DNA from: Phormidium tenue FACHB-886
GTDB taxonomy: Bacteria; Cyanobacteriota; Cyanobacteriia; Elainellales; Elainellaceae
Direction: 5' to 3'
Assembly: GCF_014764505.1 (NCBI RefSeq)
Contig: NZ_JACXWX010000011.1
Coordinates: 62,001-126,000, forward strand
Length of the DNA stretch: 64,000 bases
This document shows positions 54,129 to 64,000 of this stretch, one piece after another; within the stretch, counting starts at the first letter, position 1; every line of letters begins with the position of its first letter. A model generated the notes under the pieces. The model saw nothing but the letters and a program-made list of their open reading frames with translations. It made no database searches and was not told the DNA's origin. The translations under genes were made by a program, and so were the position numbers.

Positions 54129-55412
54129 TTAAGCGCTGATCGTCGGTTTATACAATGCTTCTCGTACAGCGGTCATTGCTGTGACGAGCCGATCGATTTC
54201 TTCCTTTGTATGCTGTGCGTTCGCGGTGATTCTGAGGCGCGGTTTGGCGATAAACCAAATAGGCGACACCCAGATGCCGTGGTCGTATATGAGCTGACGA
54301 GCGTAATTTTTGGGGTTGATATCTTCTGGCAGCAGCACCGGCACCACATTGGTTTCGCCGATCGCTTCAAAATCATGCTCCACAAGGCGCGAGCGTAAGT
54401 AGCGTGTATTTTCCTGCAGCCGTTGCACCATCTCAGGATAACGACGCACCTGACGCAGGCTCTCTAGGGCAGCTGCCGTCAATGGAGGCGCTAAGGAGCA
54501 GGTGCCGATTGAGGTGGGCGACACATTCAGCAGCGGCTTCAGCTCAGCGACATGGGTACTAATCGCCGCGCCGACCGACGCACCAAATTTAGAAAAGGTC
54601 GTCATGATCAGCGGAATCACGCCGCGCTCAATGGCATACTGTGGCGTAATGCCGAAATGTTCGTAGATGCCGCGACCCGTTGCGCCGATCGCTCCGCTGG
54701 CATGTGCTTCGTCCATGACCAAAACACTGCCTGGATAATCGGAAAGGATCTTAATCATTTCTGGCAGTGGAGCCATATCTCCATCCATTGAAAAGACGGC
54801 ATCCGAAACTACCATGATTCGATCGTCAGGGCGGGCATAGCGCTGCAGCTTCCGCGCTAAGTCTTCCATATCGCAGTGGCGGTAAGCACGCACACGCACA
54901 CGCGGACTGTGACCAAATAGCTTGCCAGAACGAGTGCCAGAGTTGGCAACCGCCGAAACAATACAACCGTGGTTCAGCACATCTGTCAGGATCAGCGTTT
55001 CGCGAGTGTGCTGGAAGCCTGGAACAGGAATCGCCAAGTGGCAGTAGGCATCCATCAGCGCCTGCATTGCCATCCAGGCATTTAGGAATAGCTGCGTATG
55101 AGGGAGATGTTTGAAGGCGGAGATTTCGTCTTCTAACTGACGGTGCAGGTCAATGCGACCGCTGAGTACTGAAGTGGAACTATTAGACGTACCGTAGTCG
55201 AGGATGGCATCGATCGCTGCCTGCTGCACGGCTTTGTTTTGCGTTAATCCCAGGACATCGTTGGTACAGAAAGTGAGAACAGTCCGATGGATGCCTGTTT
55301 CGGCTTCCTCAATCTCTACAAGGTTGCCATCTTTCTTGCCATGACAAATGTATTCGTCTGGATCTAGATCACTTTCGTACCAGCGCTGAACGTATTCTTT
55401 AACAACTTGCAC
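54129..55412 (-). CDS. Alpha-oxoamine synthase (PLP-dependent; BioF/Kbl/SPT/HemA superfamily)
   Basis: 427 residues, GTG start at 55412 supported by GAGGAG about 6 bp upstream. Type I fold PLP enzyme: the AOS pattern runs NDVLGLTQNKAVQQAAIDAI, YGTSNSSTSVLSGRIDLHRQ, VMDEAHASGAIGATGRGIYE (Asp binding PLP N1, then His) and TTFSKFGASVGA (PLP Lys about 275). These enzymes condense an amino acid with an acyl-CoA or acyl carrier and lose CO2. The N-terminal YVQRWYESDLDPDEYICHGK and the C-terminus do not match a named member I know (BioF, Kbl, SPT, CqsA), so the substrates are unknown. It is next to hisA (convergent) and the Rieske gene. Confidence 0.88.
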   Translation of the reverse strand: MQVVKEYVQRWYESDLDPDEYICHGKKDGNLVEIEEAETGIHRTVLTFCTNDVLGLTQNKAVQQAAIDAILDYGTSNSSTSVLSGRIDLHRQLEDEISAFKHLPHTQLFLNAWMAMQALMDAYCHLAIPVPGFQHTRETLILTDVLNHGCIVSAVANSGTRSGKLFGHSPRVRVRAYRHCDMEDLARKLQRYARPDDRIMVVSDAVFSMDGDMAPLPEMIKILSDYPGSVLVMDEAHASGAIGATGRGIYEHFGITPQYAIERGVIPLIMTTFSKFGASVGAAISTHVAELKPLLNVSPTSIGTCSLAPPLTAAALESLRQVRRYPEMVQRLQENTRYLRSRLVEHDFEAIGETNVVPVLLPEDINPKNYARQLIYDHGIWVSPIWFIAKPRLRITANAQHTKEEIDRLVTAMTAVREALYKPTISA

Positions 55413-55697
55413 AATAAACTCCTCTCACCTTCTGTTTAGGTCGCTTACTTTGCTCTAGCTCAACGGCAGATGCCTCGACGGCGTGGGGCACTAGATTACC
55501 CCGCCTGAGATTAATGCGCGATGAGAGAGATTGATACCTGCGATTGTGCCATTGAATCTGTTTGCCCTGCGACCTTTGGCATAAACCCAGCACGAGCAGA
55601 AATTGCATACCCCACTTTGCCATAAATGATGCATTTGAAATAATGGCGCTGGTACAGTTGCCTTACAGTCACACACTTTACAGCGATCTACAGGTCG

Positions 55698-56963
55698 CTA
55701 TATTGACTGCACAGCTTCCGATCCCTGTTCTAGCGAAGCTGCTGCAGGTTCTCCAGCCGTATCTGCCGCAGATTGAACTCTTTCAGGCGATCGCTGCCGC
55801 TCTGCCTGCAACGGTTGCCCGTTTGACAATTGCTCATTTGACGACTGCACACTTGATTGTTGCATAAACTGTTCGTATTGCCGGACAATTAGCCGTTGCA
55901 GCGCAATGATAGCTGGATTAATTTCTACATAGCGCCGCTGAGAATTTTTCAGGTATATCTGCTGTTCGCTTTCCATCATTTCAATGTCTTGATTCAAGAA
56001 GCGATGCAGCAGAAAACGGGGAATTGCCCAGCTTAGAAGCGGTCGCAGTGGGTTTAGCACCCATTTGGGCAACCGAACTCTAAAGAAGAACAGCGCAAAC
56101 GATCGGCTCTCGGCTTTGTCTACGGGAAGCCGCATGAGGTATAGCGCTGAAACCCCTTTGAGAGAGCTGGCATAGTGTGGATAACGATATTGGATAGTTA
56201 TAGGCAACGTCGTTACTTGGTCAGCCCGCTCGGTTAGCCCCAAGAACTTTGCCATCTGCCCTTTGTAGGACACCTGGTATTCAGCGCAGATCGAATCGTT
56301 GGTTTCTTTCAGGTCGATCAGCGTTGGGTCGAACCAGCCTTGCAGTTCCTCGTGCAGGAAGCCGTGAAATACATCCATTGCATTCTCATTGCAGATGGAG
56401 AAATGTGCCCGGAAATGAGCTGTGACTGGCACCATCAGCCAGTCTGAATCGCCAAATTCTGGCACTTCGAGAACAGGCTGCACGGTAGCGAGTGCGGCAT
56501 CCCCCGGAAACACCCAAACCAGCCCATATTTCTCTTGAATTGGGTAAGCTCGTGCCTGAGCGCAAGGCAGTTTTTGACCCTCTGGGAAATAGGGGATGCG
56601 GACGCATTCACCCGTTTTGCCGCTAAACTCCCAGCCGTGATAGGCGCAGGCAAGGTGCTTGCCATGGACTTTGCCCCGATGCAGCTCTACCCCCCGATGC
56701 GGACAGGCATCTTCAAGAGCATGTAGCTCACCTTCATCATCCCGGTAGACGGCAATTGACCGCTGCCAGACCACCACAGGTACAATTTCGCCAGCTTTGA
56801 AGCGATGTGCCCAGCCAACTGGGTACCAGTAGTTGGGATTAATCCCAACTTCCCGAATTTTGTTCTGGACAGTCTGACTTTTCAGCGCTGTTGCCAGTTC
56901 CTTAGCTGCTAGCTGCTTGGCTGTCAGGTTTTCTGCTGCCAATTCTTCTGCTGCCAGTTCCAT
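55698..56963 (-). CDS. Rieske-type aromatic-ring-hydroxylating oxygenase, alpha subunit-like
   Basis: 421 residues. The Rieske [2Fe-2S] site is C87-x-H89 (CPHRG) and C106-x-x-H109 (CAYHG). The mononuclear Fe site uses ENAMDVFHGFLH: D197, H200, H204. The core (about 35-360) is a full terminal oxygenase domain, like PobA/PaO-type proteins. N-terminal residues 1-30 are an Ala/Glu/Leu repeat (LAAEELAAENLTAKQLAAKE). The C-terminal ~60 residues are Gln/Ser/Glu-rich low complexity. The substrate is unknown. No reductase or ferredoxin gene is adjacent, though the window holds a [2Fe-2S] ferredoxin at 34.2 kb. It is divergent from the GH3 gene. Confidence 0.93.
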   Translation of the reverse strand: MELAAEELAAENLTAKQLAAKELATALKSQTVQNKIREVGINPNYWYPVGWAHRFKAGEIVPVVVWQRSIAVYRDDEGELHALEDACPHRGVELHRGKVHGKHLACAYHGWEFSGKTGECVRIPYFPEGQKLPCAQARAYPIQEKYGLVWVFPGDAALATVQPVLEVPEFGDSDWLMVPVTAHFRAHFSICNENAMDVFHGFLHEELQGWFDPTLIDLKETNDSICAEYQVSYKGQMAKFLGLTERADQVTTLPITIQYRYPHYASSLKGVSALYLMRLPVDKAESRSFALFFFRVRLPKWVLNPLRPLLSWAIPRFLLHRFLNQDIEMMESEQQIYLKNSQRRYVEINPAIIALQRLIVRQYEQFMQQSSVQSSNEQLSNGQPLQAERQRSPERVQSAADTAGEPAAASLEQGSEAVQSI

Positions 56964-57304
56964 AGTTCCACCCTAACCGTTGTCGATTCTGCTGCGGCTG
57001 TGCCTATAGGGGTGCCCTGGACAAACTTGCCGTGGACAATCTTGACCGTCTGGCATCAGATTTAGTTCCATAACGCGCAACTCGAACCGCAACTTTACTT
57101 ACTGTAAACAAATGCCGATGGGAGTCACTTTAGCAGGAAGGGTGGGGATCTGGATAGAGGAGGAAAACGAGGGCGGAGGGAGTAGCCGATCGGACAGGCT
57201 GCATTTCAGCCAGTTGGAACTGTATAGCTGACCTGTCACAGGAATGCAACCCGTCAGAAACACAGTTATGATACGGTCTTGTGGCTGTTTAAGATTTGGA
57301 CGTG
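56964..57304. other. Divergent spacer between the Rieske and GH3 genes
   Basis: A 341-bp gap without a gene. It probably has both promoters. A partial TGTCAC...GTGACA-like motif (CTGTCACAGGAATGCAAC at about 57233) resembles a half of the hairpin seen at 61499-61514 before the second MFS gene. Nothing else is evident. Confidence 0.45.
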
Positions 57305-59014
57305 ATGACAAATTTGGTGCTATCCGCATTGGGGGCGTTTGGAGTTTACGCAAAAAATTGGTTTATCTGTCAAACGAAAGCGCCGATCGCCGCACAGGAA
57401 AAGTTTTTAAAAGAACTTTTGCAAGTCCAGCAGAATACAGACTTAGGATACAAGTTTGGGCTAAGTGAAATTAAAACAATTGACCAGTTTCAAGAGCGTG
57501 TGCCGATCTGGTCTTACAGCAACTACGAACCCTACATGCAGCGGATTGCCAGCGGCGAACCGAACGTCTTAACGGCTGATCCGGTTATTTACATTAACTT
57601 GACCAGCGGCACAACCGGGACGCAAAAAATGATCCCGGTGACCCGCCGATTTAATCGCTCGCTAGGCAAAGCCAACGTCATTAGCTTGGGGTTTTTGGTG
57701 GAAGCGATCCAGCGTGAATCAACCCTGCGCTCGCAGCCGCTAGAGTTAGGCAAACAAGTTGCCGCAAACACCGTGCGCCTACAGGGATACACACTGGGAG
57801 GCATTCCCTATGGACCTGTGACGGTGGGCAGCTACCGGATGAATCGCTTTTTTTGCGAACAGGCTTTTGCACAGCCCTTTACGGCTATGGAGATTGCCGA
57901 CAGCCTCAGCCGCCACTATACCTGTCTGCTGTTTGCCCTTGCCAACCCTCAGGTTAGAGGAATAACTGCCAATTTCCCAATGCTGATGCTGCAAATCTGT
58001 GCTTATTTGGAGCAACATGCCGAGGAGTTGATTTGGGATATTGCACATGGCACGATCGCGCCGTGGCTCAACATAGAACCAGAGGTCCGAGCGACACTAG
58101 AAAAGCAGTGGATCGCCCAGCCACAGCGAGCAGCAGAGCTGCGATCGGTCCTGCGATCGACCGGCAGGCTCACGCCTAAAACCGCTTGGTCAAAGCTGTC
58201 AGCTGTAGGAACTGCCAGAGGGGGCACGTCGGACTTTTACTTCGAGCGCTTTCCCGACTACTTTGGCGATACTCCGCAGTTTGGCGGCGTTTATGGGACT
58301 GCTGAAGGCACATTCGGCATTTATCACGACTTCAACCAAGACGGCAGCATTTTGGCGTTAGGAAGTGGCTTCTATGAATTCATTCCGATTGACCAGTGGG
58401 AAATACCGCAGCCCAAGACCTTGCTGCCCACCGAAGTGAAGGTAGGAGAGTGCTATCGGATTTTGGTAACGAGCTATGGGGGTTGCTACCGCTATGACAT
58501 TGGCGATGTGGTTGAAGTCGTAGGCTTCTATGAGCAGACTCCGCTGATTGTCTTTCGGCATCGGTACGGCGGCTTGCTTTCCTCAACCACCGAGAAAACA
58601 ACCGAATTTCATGCCGCCCAAGCGATGAGTGCCCTTCAGCAGGAGTTTGGCTTGCAGCTAGAAGATTTCTGCATCACGCTTTGCGAGTGCGAATTTCCCT
58701 CACCGTACCTAGTCAATATCGAATTGTCTGCCGGACAAACGATCGACAATCCTGCCCAATTTTTGCAGCGATTTGACCATTGGCTAGGCGAATTTAACCG
58801 GCCTTATCGGACGGTGCGATCGGCGCAAGTGCCGCCACCCCGCCTGCGGATTTTAGCAGCAGGCAGCTTTGCGATTGTGCGCCAGCGGCAGCTGCAGCGC
58901 GGCACTTCGCCTTCACAGCTCAAGATTCTTCATATCAGCGAAGATCGACAATTTTTGGCGGGGTTGGTGGTGCTAGAGGAAGTCCGGATGCCTGCCGATT
59001 TGAGCAGGGTGTAA
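57305..59014 (+). CDS. GH3-family acyl-adenylate amido synthetase
   Basis: 569 residues, started at ATG 57305 (MTNLVLSALGAFGVYAKNWF); a TTG three codons upstream is possible. The GH3 signature is clear: YINLTSGTTGTQKMIPVTRR (ATP/acyl-adenylate loop), FGGVYGTAEGTFGIYH, PTEVKVGECYRILVTSYGG, YRYDIGDVVEVVGFYEQTPL and FRHRYGGLLSSTTEKTTEF. GH3 enzymes (for example JAR1 and GH3.5 in plants) adenylate a carboxylic acid and join it to an amino acid; bacterial members are poorly studied. The substrates here are unknown. It converges on an MFS gene, leaving only 7 bp. Confidence 0.95.
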   Translation: MTNLVLSALGAFGVYAKNWFICQTKAPIAAQEKFLKELLQVQQNTDLGYKFGLSEIKTIDQFQERVPIWSYSNYEPYMQRIASGEPNVLTADPVIYINLTSGTTGTQKMIPVTRRFNRSLGKANVISLGFLVEAIQRESTLRSQPLELGKQVAANTVRLQGYTLGGIPYGPVTVGSYRMNRFFCEQAFAQPFTAMEIADSLSRHYTCLLFALANPQVRGITANFPMLMLQICAYLEQHAEELIWDIAHGTIAPWLNIEPEVRATLEKQWIAQPQRAAELRSVLRSTGRLTPKTAWSKLSAVGTARGGTSDFYFERFPDYFGDTPQFGGVYGTAEGTFGIYHDFNQDGSILALGSGFYEFIPIDQWEIPQPKTLLPTEVKVGECYRILVTSYGGCYRYDIGDVVEVVGFYEQTPLIVFRHRYGGLLSSTTEKTTEFHAAQAMSALQQEFGLQLEDFCITLCECEFPSPYLVNIELSAGQTIDNPAQFLQRFDHWLGEFNRPYRTVRSAQVPPPRLRILAAGSFAIVRQRQLQRGTSPSQLKILHISEDRQFLAGLVVLEEVRMPADLSRV

Positions 59015-59021
59015 TGGAACG

Positions 59022-60221
59022 CTAGTGAGAGCGCACTTCATCCTTGCCTCGTATCCACCCAAGTCCAATTGCAGCAGCAACGCTAGCGGCTGCGTAGAAA
59101 ACGATCGTCACTTCACTGCCACTGCCCACGCTACTCTGATACAGCAACCAGCCGAATAGGAACGGCGAGAGAAACTGTCCTAAAAAATTCATGCCAGTCG
59201 CACTAGCGAGGATACTGGCTTGCAGATCGGCGGGGGCTAAGTTGGCGAGGGCAGCATAGTGGTTAGGCATGGCAATTCCTAAGCCAACCCCAAAGAGCAT
59301 GGCGATCGGAAAAAACCAGGAGAGGTGCTGAAGCTGAGGGATAGCAGCAGCAGCGAGCGCTACACAGCCCAAACCGATCGCAATTGCCCCCACCGTTCCA
59401 AATCGCCTGGATAAACGATTTGCCACCACCGCAGACGAGATAGCCGCGCCGATCGCCTGTGATGCCAGCACCAGTCCATTAGTAAGCGTCGTAGTCTGCA
59501 AAGTGGCTTTGAGGTGCAGCGGTAGGTAAATAATGGCTGCATAAGCCGTAGCGGCAGTCAGACTGATGGAAAGGAGCAGCCGCAAAACGTGGGGATGACA
59601 AAGATGAGACCAGAGGGGCGGCATGGAGCGATCGGCAGCCACACTGCCCGTCTCCTTGAGCGTAAGTGCCACCATCAGGGCAATCGGCAGCCCCATACCA
59701 TAGAGATAGAACGCAACCTGCCAGCTATTTGACCCCAACAGCCCTGCTAGCAGCGGGTAGGCAATGTTAGCCAGCGTTAGAGTAGAGGTGGCATAGGCAA
59801 TTGCCTGCGATCGCAGCTGCTTGTCAGGATACATCTGGGCCAAAATCCCCAAGCTAGCTGCCGCCACCCCACCTGTTGCGGCTCCCAGTAGCCCTCGTGT
59901 GGCAAGCAGGGGCAAAAAGCTGGTTGTCCAGGTTCCAGCCACCCCAAACAGCGCAAACAAACAAAGCGACGCAACCAAGATAGGGACGCGCCCAACTCGA
60001 TCTGCCAAAATCCCCAGTAAAGGACTACAGAGCGCTACTGTCAGATAGTGAGCACTGACCAGATACCCTGCTAGCGCCTTATCCAACTGCAACTGCTGCA
60101 CAATTTCTGGCAGCACAGGTGCAATTACCGCTCCTGGCATCACCGCCAATGAACCCGCTGCCAGCACCACCAAGAGCCGACGATCGCGCTGGAACCGTTC
60201 AGTCAAAAAAGCATTTGTCAT
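59022..60221 (-). CDS. MFS transporter (drug:H+ antiporter-like), paralogue 1
   Basis: 399 residues, 12 membrane spans. The major facilitator motif GILADRVGRVPI is in the loop after span 2, and LLATRGLLGAATGGVAAASL is the span 4/5 motif. It is clearly paralogous to the MFS gene at 61.6 kb: both share LAAG-L-MxG-V-PVLPE near the start and PLLGILADRVGR. The N-terminal LAAGSLAVMPGAVIAPVLPE fits DHA-type exporters. It is 69 bp from the cupin gene upstream on the same strand, a likely two-gene unit. Confidence 0.93.
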   Translation of the reverse strand: MTNAFLTERFQRDRRLLVVLAAGSLAVMPGAVIAPVLPEIVQQLQLDKALAGYLVSAHYLTVALCSPLLGILADRVGRVPILVASLCLFALFGVAGTWTTSFLPLLATRGLLGAATGGVAAASLGILAQMYPDKQLRSQAIAYATSTLTLANIAYPLLAGLLGSNSWQVAFYLYGMGLPIALMVALTLKETGSVAADRSMPPLWSHLCHPHVLRLLLSISLTAATAYAAIIYLPLHLKATLQTTTLTNGLVLASQAIGAAISSAVVANRLSRRFGTVGAIAIGLGCVALAAAAIPQLQHLSWFFPIAMLFGVGLGIAMPNHYAALANLAPADLQASILASATGMNFLGQFLSPFLFGWLLYQSSVGSGSEVTIVFYAAASVAAAIGLGWIRGKDEVRSH

Positions 60222-60290
60222 TCCATCAGGTTGAAGAGAACGGGTTTTTTGCGATCTGGCTCAAAGTTTACTGTTTCTCGCTGAAAAATT

Positions 60291-61277
60291 TTAGAACATC
60301 TGCAGAATTTCTTTAATTTGCTGTTGGCGATCGCCGCTGAAGCTGGCTTGGATTAAGCTGAGACCCGTGACGGGCAACGCACAGACACTGCCCAGAAAAG
60401 CCCGCCAGCGTGCCCACGATCGCCAGCCCCGAGCCACCGGAACGCACCAGAAGCGATTAATCGAGCAGACCATTTCATCTGCTACCGCATCCCTAAGCGC
60501 CGTCACTTCATGCCACCAGCCTGCCGGAATATACAGCGCTTCTCCACATTTAAGAACAAAGTCATAGCGATGGCGCATTGCCTCCCGCAGCCGAGGAAAC
60601 GCCTGAAAATCGGGGCGATCGGGATAGACCTGACTAAACCACGCGCGCAGCCGCATGCCATGCCAAAGCTGCACATAAACCGGATAAGGGTAGAGGTTGC
60701 GCGTCTGGCTGGGCGGAAATAGAACAACCCGCTTCTCGCCGTGCAGCTGAATCAAAGTGCCATCGGTCGGATCATAGTGCAAACATTCTAGATGTCCACT
60801 GGGTCCCACCCAGAGATTCACGCGGCTAGCTGGCCGGGTGAAGCCAATCTGGGCAAGCCGTTGAACAATCGATTGGTAAGCTTCTGTTTCGGTTAGCGGC
60901 GTGTCTTGAATGGCACACTTTGCTAGATAAATGTCTTGCTCATGTGCCTCGTGGCTCCGAAGCAGTTGGGCATAGTCTGAGAACGAACGTGATTCTGGTG
61001 GAACACCACTGCCGATCGTTGTCCAGGTTCGTTTGTCCTGCTGGTATCTTTCTTTGCCGTAGCGCCGCAGCAAGAAGGGGCGATCGCCTAGCTGATTGCA
61101 CAAATACTCCAGGGACCAATCCCAAGCCGGATCTAGCAAACCCGTTAAAATCACTGGAACTCCCGGCTGCTGGTAGCGTCGAATGAATTCATCGCTCGTC
61201 AGCTCAGAGATATCAACTTTAGGCAGCGTTAAGAAAGGCTGTCCCAGACTGGCTAGAGCTTCGGCAGGTATTTGCAT
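60291..61277 (-). CDS. Cupin-8/JmjC-type oxygenase
   Basis: 328 residues. Fe(II)/2-oxoglutarate JmjC-like fold with metal ligands H167-x-D169 (LHYDPTDG) and H256 (WWHEV), and the typical PGVPVILTGLLDPAWDWSLE near the start. LIQLHGEKRVVLFPPSQTRN and YVQLWHGMR are part of the core barrel. Family members hydroxylate amino acid side chains or tRNA (TYW5-like) or small molecules; the target is unknown. The C-terminal ~50 residues include a hydrophobic stretch (FLGSVCALPVTGLSLIQ). It is 69 bp upstream of paralogue 1 MFS. Confidence 0.9.
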   Translation of the reverse strand: MQIPAEALASLGQPFLTLPKVDISELTSDEFIRRYQQPGVPVILTGLLDPAWDWSLEYLCNQLGDRPFLLRRYGKERYQQDKRTWTTIGSGVPPESRSFSDYAQLLRSHEAHEQDIYLAKCAIQDTPLTETEAYQSIVQRLAQIGFTRPASRVNLWVGPSGHLECLHYDPTDGTLIQLHGEKRVVLFPPSQTRNLYPYPVYVQLWHGMRLRAWFSQVYPDRPDFQAFPRLREAMRHRYDFVLKCGEALYIPAGWWHEVTALRDAVADEMVCSINRFWCVPVARGWRSWARWRAFLGSVCALPVTGLSLIQASFSGDRQQQIKEILQMF

Positions 61278-61594
61278 GGTTCAAGATCTGGTAATTGAAA
61301 GACAATTCCCTGAATTCAAACGAGCGAATATTGAATTAGCGTTTCCGATACCAGCAGTTTGGTCCTGAGTATTACTCAAACTTTTTCAAGAGCAGCTTGC
61401 AAACCATCTCCTGAAAAGACTGGATGGAATGCTAGCCATTATGCGGCAGGAAATTCTGTCTCTGCAACAGAACAGATGAGCGTAGCCGCTTATAGAACTG
61501 TCACAAGAGTGACACCAGGCTAATCTGTCCTAGGCTGGCTATTCGACAACCGTTAAATCCCCTATGTTAACAATTAGTTAGTTACAACTTTTCT
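61278..61594. other. Divergent spacer between the cupin-8 gene and MFS paralogue 2
   Basis: A 317-bp gap with no gene. A perfect inverted repeat TGTCACAAGAGTGACA (61499-61514) lies about 80-95 bp before the MFS start and could be an operator. AATTAGTTAGTTAC near 61570 is a small direct repeat. No transcription factor gene is adjacent. Confidence 0.5.
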
Positions 61595-62797
61595 ATGTTA
61601 CCTGTCAGCAGGGTTTTACCTAAACAGATTCTCAACCTCACGGCTCACGAGCGATTTCACCAGTTTTTGATCCTGCTGGCGGCAGGCTGCCTTACTACCA
61701 TGACAGGCGGTGTTGTTTCGCCCGTCCTGCCCGAAATGGTGCAGGATCTGCACCTTGACCCCGGTTGGGCAGGCACGTTGGTGAGCGTTCATGCCTTGAC
61801 GAGTGCGATCGCCACCCCGCTGATGGGTATCGTTGCAGACCGGGTAGGCAAGCTGAAGGTGATGATTCCTTGCTTGCTGCTTTACGCTTTTTTTGGGACG
61901 GCAACGGCTTTTGTTACGGCGTTTCCGCTGCTGCTGGCAACTCGAGGTCTGCTGGGTGCAGCTAGCGGTGGCGTGGCGGCGGCAGTAATTGGCTTGCTGG
62001 GCAGCATGTATGAAGGAGAACGGCGATCGCGAGTGCTCGGCTATGCCACCAGTGTCATGACGACTTCAGCCATTTTCTTTCCGCTGCTGGGCGGCTGGGT
62101 GGGCGGTGCTCATTGGCAATATGCTTTCTATCTCTATGCATTAGGCATTCCGTTGGCAGCAGTGGCGCTACTGAACCTGCACGAGCCAACAACCAAATCA
62201 GATTCTGTTTTGGGATTGGGGCAGGGCAGTTTAGGCAAAGTGGTGCTGAAGCAAGAGATCTTGCAGCTCTATCTGTTTATTGCAATCGCCGCGCTAACGG
62301 TTTATGCCGTTGTCATTTACACGCCGCTTTACCTGAAAGATGCCATTAACGCCGACCCCATGCTGAATGGCTTTGTGTTAGCGGTGCGGCTGGTGGGTGC
62401 GGCGATCGTCTCTGCGATTGGGGCAAGCAAGCTGGCAAGACGAATGGGCAAACATTGGGCAATTGCCTTTGGGTTCAGCCTGATGGCGCTAACGCTGGCA
62501 ACGATCCCGTTTTTGACGAATATCTTCCTGATTGTGATTGCGGCGATCCTGTTTGGGATTGGCTTTGGGGTGATTACGCCCAACCTGTACGACACGCTTG
62601 CCGATCGATCGCCTGCGGAGATGCGGGCGAGTGTGCTGGCGATCGGCACTGGATTCAATTCGCTGGGGCAGTTTGTCTCGCCGGTGCTGCTGGGTCCAAT
62701 ATGGAAGGCGGCAGGGTTGCCGACGGTGTTTTATGTGGCAGGCGGCATTGCCTTAGCAGCGGCAGCGTTGAGCTTGGCACAAGGGAAAAGGGAGTAA
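61595..62797 (+). CDS. MFS transporter, paralogue 2
   Basis: 400 residues, 12 membrane spans. It shares the key motifs with paralogue 1 (LAAGCLTTMTGGVVSPVLPE; LMGIVADRVGKLKVMIPCLL; LLATRGLLGAASGGVAAAVI). The C-terminal half contains GFGVITPNLYDTLADRSPAE. It likely exports or imports a small hydrophobic or amphipathic molecule. It is on the opposite strand from the cupin and paralogue 1 genes. A perfect inverted repeat lies in its upstream region. Confidence 0.94.
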   Translation: MLPVSRVLPKQILNLTAHERFHQFLILLAAGCLTTMTGGVVSPVLPEMVQDLHLDPGWAGTLVSVHALTSAIATPLMGIVADRVGKLKVMIPCLLLYAFFGTATAFVTAFPLLLATRGLLGAASGGVAAAVIGLLGSMYEGERRSRVLGYATSVMTTSAIFFPLLGGWVGGAHWQYAFYLYALGIPLAAVALLNLHEPTTKSDSVLGLGQGSLGKVVLKQEILQLYLFIAIAALTVYAVVIYTPLYLKDAINADPMLNGFVLAVRLVGAAIVSAIGASKLARRMGKHWAIAFGFSLMALTLATIPFLTNIFLIVIAAILFGIGFGVITPNLYDTLADRSPAEMRASVLAIGTGFNSLGQFVSPVLLGPIWKAAGLPTVFYVAGGIALAAAALSLAQGKRE

Positions 62798-62854
62798 TCG
62801 GGAATAATTAACGATCGTTTTGAGAACATTTAGAGTCAAAACGATCACTTTTTC

Positions 62855-63263
62855 TTAAGTGATAGATTCAGTGATAGATTCAATGTTCTGAAACATTTGT
62901 GCTTTATTGACCAGAACTGTCTTCTGCAAAACCTTTTGGTAAAAGGGGTGAAATGTATCGGGTCTGACATAAAACCAGATGTCATCCTAGAGCTCAGCTT
63001 ATTATTAAAGTCCTGGATGATAGCATTCTCTTCAGCTGGTGTCACTGTTCAGGATATTTTTCGTACCACCCATGCTGATCGCTTGACAGGTAAACGCCGT
63101 AGAGATCCGACAAAATTGCCCAACTAACGTTTTTGTCTTTACACCTTGCCATAAACTGCTGAATACGATGCTCTGTATAAAGCTGATCTGGTGTGGCGAT
63201 CTTGCCAGATTCGTTGAGGGATAAATCTTTTTCTGCGGAACAGTGAGTTAGATATACACGCAT
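62855..63263 (-). pseudogene. Broken DUF6884-like gene
   Basis: A 73-residue open frame (63263-63042) begins MRVYLTHCSAEKDLSLNESG and contains ATPDQLYTEHRIQQFM and VSWAILSDLYGVYL, the pattern I recall for DUF6884-like proteins. It stops after WYEKYPEQ. The rest continues in other frames: TPAEENAIIQDFNNKL, then DDIWFYVRPDTFHPF with an in-frame stop before it, then KVLQKTVLVNKAQMFQNIES. So at least two frameshifts and a stop have split one gene. A 12-bp tandem duplication (GTGATAGATTCA) is at its 3' end. The family name is from memory. Confidence 0.65.
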
Positions 63264-63412
63264 AGCTCTTTTACGGTAACTTTCTCAGCGTTTCGATTCT
63301 TCATTACAGCTAGGCGCTTATGCTTCTCGCACCTGTGTAAAGCAAATCGCCCAAAGACTGCAGCAGCTTTTGGGCGATTGAGCGCTAATCCGGCTGGTAT
63401 GGAAAGAATAAG

Positions 63413-64000
63413 TTACTTCAACATCTGCTCAAACTGCTTTTCCCAATTGTCGTGATTGCCTTTGGCAACCTGAACGATCGGCGACGCTGAAATCAGCGTA
63501 TTCACCAGCCAGTTAACCAGGTTCAGCGGGAAGCGCAGCGGACGGGCAATATCGAGAAACAGCACCACCCGATAGCCATCCGTTTCATTCCAGACTTCGT
63601 GATAGAAAGTGTCATCAAAAATTAGGCTCTTGCCTTCTTCCCAATGAGCGAACTGATCTGCTACCCGGATGCGACAGTTTTCCTTAGGTTCCGGTACTTT
63701 TAGCCCCAGGTGATAGCGGATCAAGCCTTTGTGTTTGCCGCGATGTTCTGGGATATGTTTGCCCGGAGCCAAGATCGAGAAAAACGCCACCTTCATGCCA
63801 GGAATTTGACTGATCAGCCGGGTTGTTTCGGGGCAGCGATCGCAGTTTGCCTTTGCCCGGAAGCCAAAGGCACAGAAGAAATAAGTTTTCCACAGATTAT
63901 CGTTAGCAATCTTTCCTTGACGTGGCGAAATATCCTGGAAGTTGGGCAAGGCATCTGCATGTTCCATCACTCGATCGAGTTCCTGACGAATCACCTGCCA
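63413..64000 (-). CDS. Aspartyl/asparaginyl beta-hydroxylase-family protein (partial at window edge)
   Basis: The frame runs off the right edge; an internal GTG at 63994 may not be the real start. About 195 residues are visible. The Asp/Asn hydroxylase fold is shown by PGKHIPEHRGKHKGLIRYHL (Fe-binding His), EEGKSLIFDDTFYHEVWNET with second Fe His, and YRVVLFLDIARPLRFPLNLV. FF-SILAPG is the usual lead. These are Fe(II)/2-oxoglutarate enzymes that hydroxylate Asp/Asn in proteins or act on lipid A (LpxO-like). The target is unknown. Confidence 0.9.
   Translation of the reverse strand, partial: WQVIRQELDRVMEHADALPNFQDISPRQGKIANDNLWKTYFFCAFGFRAKANCDRCPETTRLISQIPGMKVAFFSILAPGKHIPEHRGKHKGLIRYHLGLKVPEPKENCRIRVADQFAHWEEGKSLIFDDTFYHEVWNETDGYRVVLFLDIARPLRFPLNLVNWLVNTLISASPIVQVAKGNHDNWEKQFEQMLK

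Follow-up and report, generated by a model that had tools for sequence, protein, structure and literature searches.

A divergent α-oxoamine synthase and its partner genes in Phormidium tenue: probable part of a dispersed cyanobacterial pathway for a ceramide-type membrane lipid

The last 10 kb of a 64,000-nucleotide stretch of the Phormidium tenue FACHB-886 genome (contig NZ_JACXWX010000011.1, positions 62,001 to 126,000; hereafter the window, G000:C13:62001-126000 of an 8.9-Mb cyanobacterial assembly, G and L being handles for genomes and loci) carry a block of genes that begins with a pyridoxal phosphate (PLP) enzyme of the α-oxoamine synthase (AOS) family and continues with a Rieske oxygenase, GH3-type amide synthetases, further oxygenases and two transporters. 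Comparison with other genomes suggests that this block probably belongs to a pathway, dispersed over the genome, for a ceramide- or sphingolipid-type membrane lipid, because the AOS is tied to an N-acyltransferase of the YghO family and to a short-chain dehydrogenase/reductase (SDR), and because genes for an exporter of the DevA/DevC type, a fatty-acid hydroxylase and an Mpo1-like protein recur beside it in other genomes. In P. tenue the N-acyltransferase, a tandem GNAT of about 380 amino acids, and the SDR, of about 320, stand together on another contig (C190:17977-20086), so neither was visible to an earlier note on the window.

Co-occurrence and linkage of the gene set

Of 292 genomes sampled from the phylum, 22 have the AOS (E ≤ 1e-80); they belong to 17 of the 116 genera. 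The GNAT, at E ≤ 3.1e-176, occurs in exactly these 22 genomes, the next best match standing at 1.1e-58 (31 of the 292 have one at 1e-20), and the SDR, at E ≤ 1e-80, again in exactly the same 22. A Rieske protein of the block type is found in 15 of the 22 and in none of the 270 AOS-negative genomes (E ≤ 1.3e-183); a different Rieske group with weaker matches (2.7e-92 to 4.3e-72) is common, 61 of 292 genomes having a match at 1e-60. For GH3 (best copy, E ≤ 2.9e-74) the counts are 16/22 and 0/270. The remaining families were counted in 80 genomes, the 22 with AOS and 58 AOS-negative controls hand-picked from printed lists: the MFS-b transporter subfamily (E ≤ 1e-70) in 18/22 against 0/58, the fatty-acid hydroxylase (E ≤ 2.2e-82) in 20/22 against 0/58, with five AOS-negative homologues at 3.7e-57 to 8.2e-65, the Mpo1-like protein (E ≤ 1e-15) in 14/22 against 0/58, and the JmjC protein (E ≤ 2.2e-98) in 5/22 against 0/58, with weaker matches in two AOS-negative genomes. 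Fisher values extend from 1e-33 (GNAT, SDR) to 0.001 (JmjC) and 0.086 (the OlsC-like hydroxylase discussed below).

Linkage was followed in 80 named AOS loci, the best 80 of 169 relatives, many of which end at contig ends; their genes were labelled by BLAST and clustering. All are titled cyanobacterial except one metagenome-assembled genome titled Tatlockia (L097), and the sample overlaps the genome survey, some named loci apparently coming from the same genomes (e.g., L082 and G005). Rieske genes lie around the AOS in 68 of the 80, followed by MFS and GNAT (36 each), fatty-acid hydroxylase (27), SDR (26), GH3 (23), DevA (20), Mpo1-like (19), amidohydrolase (18), DevC (17), OlsC-like (11) and JmjC (10); HisA, which adjoins the AOS in P. 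tenue, is found close by in just 7-8. Where at least 3.5 kb of upstream sequence is available, Rieske is found in 64 of 70 loci, and a further pathway gene accompanies the AOS in 30 of the 39 loci whose flanks are complete. In 11 of the 80, Rieske, GNAT, SDR, fatty-acid hydroxylase and GH3 are all around the AOS. The fullest order is amidohydrolase, Mpo1-like, fatty-acid hydroxylase / GH3 / MFS / Rieske, AOS, GNAT, SDR / DevA, DevC, seen for example in Chlorogloea sp. CCALA 695 (L096) and Aliterella atlantica CENA595 (L103, with a 97-aa Mpo1-like open reading frame, ORF). Calothrix sp. NIES-4105 (L135) comes close to it, though the stretch at hand includes neither GH3 nor MFS.

The window locus, taken together with 20 of the 21 other AOS-positive neighbourhoods, gives GNAT in 13 of 21 loci, in 12 of which it stands beside the AOS, and SDR clusters in 10, one of which (L043) is a different SDR; the window locus itself has neither GNAT nor SDR. 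Parts of the set can also stand as modules apart from the AOS: MFS, GH3 and JmjC at G005:C53; GH3, fatty-acid hydroxylase and Mpo1-like at G062:C12 and G172:C107; and GH3 with the OlsC-like gene in G011. The proposal of the earlier note that the genes of the block belong together is therefore upheld, since homologues of AOS, Rieske, GH3 and MFS are not scattered among genomes but co-occur and are repeatedly linked.

It is extremely improbable that these are separate housekeeping genes whose proximity is a matter of chance or shared ancestry. Such an explanation could appeal to the use of both strands, to the large size of several of the families, and to 9 of the 39 full-flank loci, which have no partner beyond, at most, Rieske; it is already contradicted by the co-occurrence across 17 genera and by linkage that holds where other neighbours differ, as the Rieske and HisA counts illustrate.

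Other genes are found in some of these loci. In two relatives a TnpB-family gene (L032:12156-13346) and an ORF of the same cluster (L046:12095-13210) lie between Rieske and MFS, so the cluster receives mobile-element insertions. The gap between Rieske and AOS holds, in some genomes (L033:10925-12424, L035:7575-9115), two conserved proteins of 295 and 175 aa, the latter lipoprotein-like; neither has a Pfam or NCBIfam match, and their families occur in 7 and 6 of the 80 loci. A 452-aa protein, also without a Pfam match, adjoins the AOS in 6 of the 80 (L114:11382-12740).

The core enzymes and their relatives

The AOS has orthologues at 70-82% identity in the 21 other genomes, and the closest of the 80 named loci are those of Elainella sp. 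Prado103 (90%) and Drouetiella hepatica (89%). H148, D234, H237 and K275 are invariant in an alignment (A6) that includes rows from serine palmitoyltransferase (SPT), KBL, BioF and ALAS; these residues we take to be catalytic, with the PLP lysine and the stacking histidine among them. The best NCBIfam model is bioF (TIGR00858), at 230.9 bits for a cut-off of 426.45; the SPT models NF047599, NF047600 and NF047603 give 166.4, 180 and 112.4 bits, none reaching its cut-off (500, 640 and 670). In a 23-row tree, with only five SPT-type references and the long row from Acidisoma left out, the AOS proteins form their own long-branch clade, and approximately unbiased (AU) tests do not reject a grouping with SPT (p-AU 0.284). 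A profile of the clade gives AOS proteins of Bacteroides (176 bits), Rubrobacter (160) and Aureispira (155) higher scores than the best KBL-type (146) and BioF (137) rows, with E. coli Spt at 122 and Sphingomonas SPT at 108. An AlphaFold model of the AOS (mean pLDDT 61.9, pTM 0.52, 17 close rows) was too poor for fold comparison. Since one of the two further AOS genes in the P. tenue genome groups with BioF and the other with KBL, the block AOS is probably not needed for either of these roles.

The GNAT matches YghO of E. coli B REL606 over its full length (27.8% over 388 columns, E 5e-50); the neighbourhood of yghO in REL606 contains FAAL, epimerase, acyl carrier protein (ACP) and spt genes, and PMC9386255 lists yghO, together with Caulobacter CC_1154, as aca, the gene for the ceramide acyl-CoA N-acyltransferase. 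It is also related to the GNATs of SPT loci in Sphingomonas parapaucimobilis (28%), where the SPT scores 907 bits against the solved SPT 2jg2, and Roseomonas mucosa (34%); in both of these loci, too, a hydroxylase/desaturase gene stands by the GNAT. The GNAT profile searched against PDB sequences gave a best E of only 0.096. A predicted model of the Aliterella atlantica (L103) protein (pLDDT 72.4, pTM 0.72) has a tandem GNAT fold, aligning with 5kf2 (Z 21.0, 293 residues aligned, rmsd 3.6) and with N-myristoyltransferase (Z 14.5, 286 aligned, rmsd 5.3), a likeness of fold that is no proof of function. The SDR belongs to the HpnA/SdmB/OleD type, with scores under the cut-offs of those models.

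Two plasmid loci from other phyla deserve mention. In Rubrobacter radiotolerans (L141:6725-12317), AOS, GNAT (34% to the cyanobacterial protein), SDR and an LTA-synthase-family gene are consecutive, near type I-D CRISPR genes, possibly a plasmid-borne ceramide-type operon in an actinobacterium. On a Klebsiella michiganensis plasmid (NZ_CP106839.1:115888-117042), an SPT-like gene (47% to Sphingomonas SPT) adjoins an acyl carrier protein gene.

Several points weigh against a ceramide-type pathway. The AOS lies below the NCBIfam cut-offs of SPT, BioF, KBL and ALAS alike; in the 23-row tree the five SPT-type references form a group of their own (100/98) that leaves it out, and the best tree sets it beside KBL, weakly (72/42), a placement that recurs when Acidisoma is included (80/73, the other five SPT-type rows together at 99/98); and a grouping with BioF is no more rejected (p-AU 0.166) than one with SPT. 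The SDR is only distantly like E. coli epi (24%, E 3e-18), so orthology with CerR is not established. Inspection of the block's gap frames by eye revealed no ACP (no profile or genome-wide search having been made), whereas Rhodobacteria have a dedicated ACP and acyl-ACP synthetase at the locus. The survey has its own weaknesses: cut-offs were set after the gaps had been seen, some of the genomes counted had also supplied sequences for profiles A1-A4, and related genomes are not independent, a kinship that the Fisher values ignore. The GH3 gap is narrow, with AOS-negative genomes of other classes reaching 2.0e-61 and counts of 17/22 and 22/270 at 1e-20; GH3, Rieske and MFS are each absent from some AOS-positive genomes, and the full-flank loci lacking further partners belong here too.

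Given the missed cut-offs and the tree placement, the AOS was not filed as an SPT. In the best tree it stands as a deep lineage apart from the sampled SPT clade, and its amino acid substrate may be serine or another.

The block in the window, its tailoring enzymes and transporters

The block (Table 1) runs hisA(+) / AOS(-) Rieske(-) / GH3-a(+) / MFS-a(-) JmjC(-) / MFS-b(+) / OlsC-like(-) GH3-b(-) / DUF218(+), the hisA label having been taken from the sequence by inspection, without a search. Each of the families named in the earlier note (AOS, Rieske, GH3, JmjC, Asp/Asn hydroxylase, two MFS) is backed by Pfam, and its description of the two transporters as paralogues agrees with the match of MFS-a to the MFS-b profile (6.8e-132). 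Its suspicion that the 64-kb edge might not be the block boundary was also well founded: the OlsC-like gene runs on to 64177 on the window scale (L005:15413-16177), and beyond it, 44 bp away on the same strand, lies GH3-b, with the DUF218 gene next.

Table 1. Genes of the block and the associated N-acyltransferase (positions on the window scale unless a contig is given)
Feature	Position	Strand	Basis
AOS-family PLP enzyme, 427 aa, proposed long-chain-base synthase	54129-55412	-	Pfam Aminotran_1_2
Rieske non-haem iron oxygenase, upstream of AOS, same strand	55698-56963	-	Pfam Rieske + VanA_C
GH3-a, acyl-adenylating amide synthetase family	57296-59014	+	Pfam GH3 N, M, C domains
MFS-a transporter	59022-60221	-	Pfam MFS_1
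JmjC/Cupin_8 2-oxoglutarate oxygenase, FIH-like	60291-61277	-	Pfam Cupin_8, 138.8 bits
MFS-b transporter	61595-62797	+	Pfam MFS_1
OlsC-like Asp_Arg_Hydrox protein, cut by window edge	63413-64000	-	Pfam Asp_Arg_Hydrox
GH3-b, beyond window edge	64222-65913 (L005:16222-17913)	-	
YghO-family tandem GNAT, outside window	G000:C190:17977-19107		full-length YghO match

For GH3-a an ATG at 57305 is the likelier start than the one tabulated. Among the matches listed, no block protein reaches an NCBIfam cut-off; by their scores the proteins are relatives, not members, of BioF/KBL/SPT, SdmA, OlsH and OlsC. Scanning the window against Rfam (at gathering scores) and for tRNAs gave no matches. Between MFS-b and the OlsC-like gene (62798-63412, minus strand) about 80 codons are open in a coding-looking frame, possibly a gene remnant; the 73 residues scanned have no Pfam match at 0.01.

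The closest curated model for the Rieske protein is SdmA (NF052579, a 4β-methylsterol monooxygenase), an assignment ruled out by the cut-off (236.8 bits, far below 600), and the closest solved chains are those of SxtT/SxtDIOX (E 7.2e-22 for SxtDIOX); the motifs CxH, CxxH and DxxHxxxH are invariant (alignment A2). The JmjC protein matches FIH in PDB at E 4.5e-21, and its ORF has a visible HYD and distal H, the motif of such oxygenases. The fatty-acid hydroxylase of the P. tenue genome is outside the block, on contig C179, and no Mpo1-like match was found in this genome at E ≤ 1e-15. The Mpo1 family is named in Pfam after a 2-hydroxy-palmitic acid dioxygenase, and in yeast Mpo1 takes part in phytosphingosine breakdown.

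The Asp_Arg_Hydrox protein belongs to the same family as the OlsC/LpxO acyl 2-hydroxylases, and OlsC (NF052565) is its best NCBIfam match; it is not OlsC by that model's cut-off (269.2 bits of 450). It was also dropped as a pathway-specific member, being found in 4/22 AOS-positive and 3/58 AOS-negative genomes (E ≤ 2.8e-86), or 6/22 and 6/58 at 1e-10. The place given to an Asp/Asn hydroxylase in the originally proposed set thus holds as far as linkage goes, in the loci counted above, but not as regards specificity for the AOS.

GH3 enzymes couple free acids to amines using ATP. The P. tenue genome has four GH3 genes (contigs C13, C178 and C179), two of them in the block. GH3-a matches JAR1 at E 1.1e-37 (phmmer). 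With OlsH, the planctomycete lyso-ornithine lipid synthetase (PMC12493201), the block enzymes share the GH3 fold with N, M and C domains and, as proposed here, the ATP-dependent synthesis of fatty amides; an assignment as OlsH is excluded by the cut-off of NF052613 (88.7 bits for GH3-a and 94.2 for GH3-b, of 620). Two other roles were considered for this GH3 group. As a substitute for the GNAT N-acyltransferase it was dropped, the GNAT being present in all 16 genomes that have the group, and action on a Rieske-made carboxylate is weakened by the absence of the strong-group Rieske from 7 of these 16.

One possibility is that two lipid pathways lie next to each other here, AOS, GNAT and SDR (perhaps with Rieske) making ceramides, and GH3, OlsC-like enzyme and MFS making an N-acyl amino acid lipid resembling ornithine lipid. 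OlsH does make N-acyl ornithine according to PMC12493201; GH3-b and the OlsC-like gene are close together and are neighbours again in G011, L067 and L077; MFS is found in all 16 AOS-positive genomes with this GH3 and in 2 of the 6 without (p 0.002, post hoc); and G005 has MFS, GH3 and JmjC together, apart from its AOS. This division is nonetheless unlikely: the GH3 group (E ≤ 2.9e-74) is never found without AOS in the 292 genomes, so the two branches are not independent, both GH3 proteins score far under the OlsH cut-off, and the OlsC-like gene occurs in AOS-negative genomes as well.

DevBCA exports heterocyst glycolipid. DevA/DevC-type ABC transporter genes lie near the SDR in the P. tenue genome (L049), at 69% and 59% identity to the copies of L126, and recur in the named loci as counted above; the L126 copies are under the model cut-offs (DevA 247.4 of 295.8, DevC 170.9 of 290.35).

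A proposed pathway and its relation to known systems

Taken by itself, the block brings an AOS, a GH3 enzyme and two MFS transporters together with oxygenases of three kinds within 10 kb, and the AOS is patchily distributed, in 22 of 292 genomes; this could be a cluster of specialised metabolism whose product is a small acyl-amino compound, oxidised and then secreted. This is distinctly unlikely, as the YghO-family N-acyltransferase and the SDR accompany the AOS in 22 of 22 genomes, the neighbours include fatty-acid hydroxylase, Mpo1-like and DevA/DevC-type exporter genes, and no nonribosomal peptide synthetase or polyketide synthase domain is among the Pfam matches of the block and the scanned neighbours. 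The earlier note had sketched the making, tailoring and moving of an acyl-amino compound, a fair outline, but its small compound made from these genes alone finds no support once GNAT and SDR are taken into account.

For the ceramide-type pathway, a sequence of six steps can be proposed. The AOS would likely make a 3-keto long-chain base by condensation of an acyl thioester and an amino acid; the tandem GNAT, of the YghO/aca/bCerS family, would likely N-acylate this base; and the adjoining SDR would likely reduce the keto group. It is plausible that the Rieske protein, the fatty-acid hydroxylase and, in some genomes, the JmjC and OlsC-like enzymes then hydroxylate the lipid. More speculatively, GH3 might form an amide in an ATP-dependent manner from a free acid, whether to re-acylate the base with recycled fatty acids or to attach an amino acid, and MFS might flip or export the lipid, alongside or in place of the DevA/DevC-type ABC exporter. 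Extended further, the proposal becomes tentative, and rather doubtful as a whole: a new type of AOS, perhaps not using serine, would make cyanobacterial ceramide-like lipids with a tailoring and recycling set of their own, in which fatty-acid hydroxylase and Rieske protein hydroxylate, the Mpo1-like protein removes 2-hydroxy acyl chains, GH3 re-uses free acids, and a dedicated MFS protein translocates the lipid.

The nearest described system is the bacterial ceramide pathway of Caulobacter and E. coli B (Spt, bCerS/aca and CerR/epi; PMC11087976, PMC9386255), to which the cyanobacterial genes are alike in the co-occurrence of an AOS-family enzyme, a YghO-family N-acyltransferase and an SDR, often consecutive. 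They differ in that the cyanobacterial AOS falls, in the best tree, outside the sampled SPT clade and that no ACP or acyl-ACP synthetase was recognised in the block; FAAL, ACP and LptF/G-type genes in the Roseomonas and E. coli loci take the place that Rieske, GH3, MFS and Mpo1-like partners have in cyanobacteria. In Caulobacter, Spt and then bCerS act in the cytoplasm and CerR in the periplasm, with the flippases or transporters unidentified according to PMC11087976, and intrinsic enzymes of E. coli BL21 have been suggested to convert the SPT product further (PMC9386255). The statement that no pathway with this set has been described is accordingly true of the full set, in the literature searched, but not of its core, since AOS, N-acyltransferase and reductase are described for bacterial ceramides.

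Few cyanobacterial sphingolipids have been reported, and in 2022 their genetic basis was termed unreported (PMC8895605); according to the same source, Nostoc punctiforme makes no sphingolipids, and two producing species apparently have a second AOS. SPT-like genes have been used to extend the potential sphingolipid producers to 40 phyla (PMC11334938), in the main text of which the string "cyanobacteri" occurs once, in the reference list. The titles and abstracts listed in the literature search describe no gene set like the one found here; cyanobacterial Spt-like genes may have been reported earlier in supplements or subscription papers. What is known is thus the logic of bacterial ceramide synthesis; what is new, with respect to the literature searched, is a divergent AOS with its tailoring and transport set.

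As parts of such a pathway these genes would offer a genetic handle on cyanobacterial lipids of unexplained origin, and one that is directly testable, the set being complete in named strains. The ceramide-type pathway, if true, would extend bacterial sphingolipid biology by a further lineage of AOS, an amide synthetase of the GH3 family and a candidate transporter for lipids. It would also bear on sphingolipid signals in cyanobacterial symbioses, a question raised in PMC8895605.

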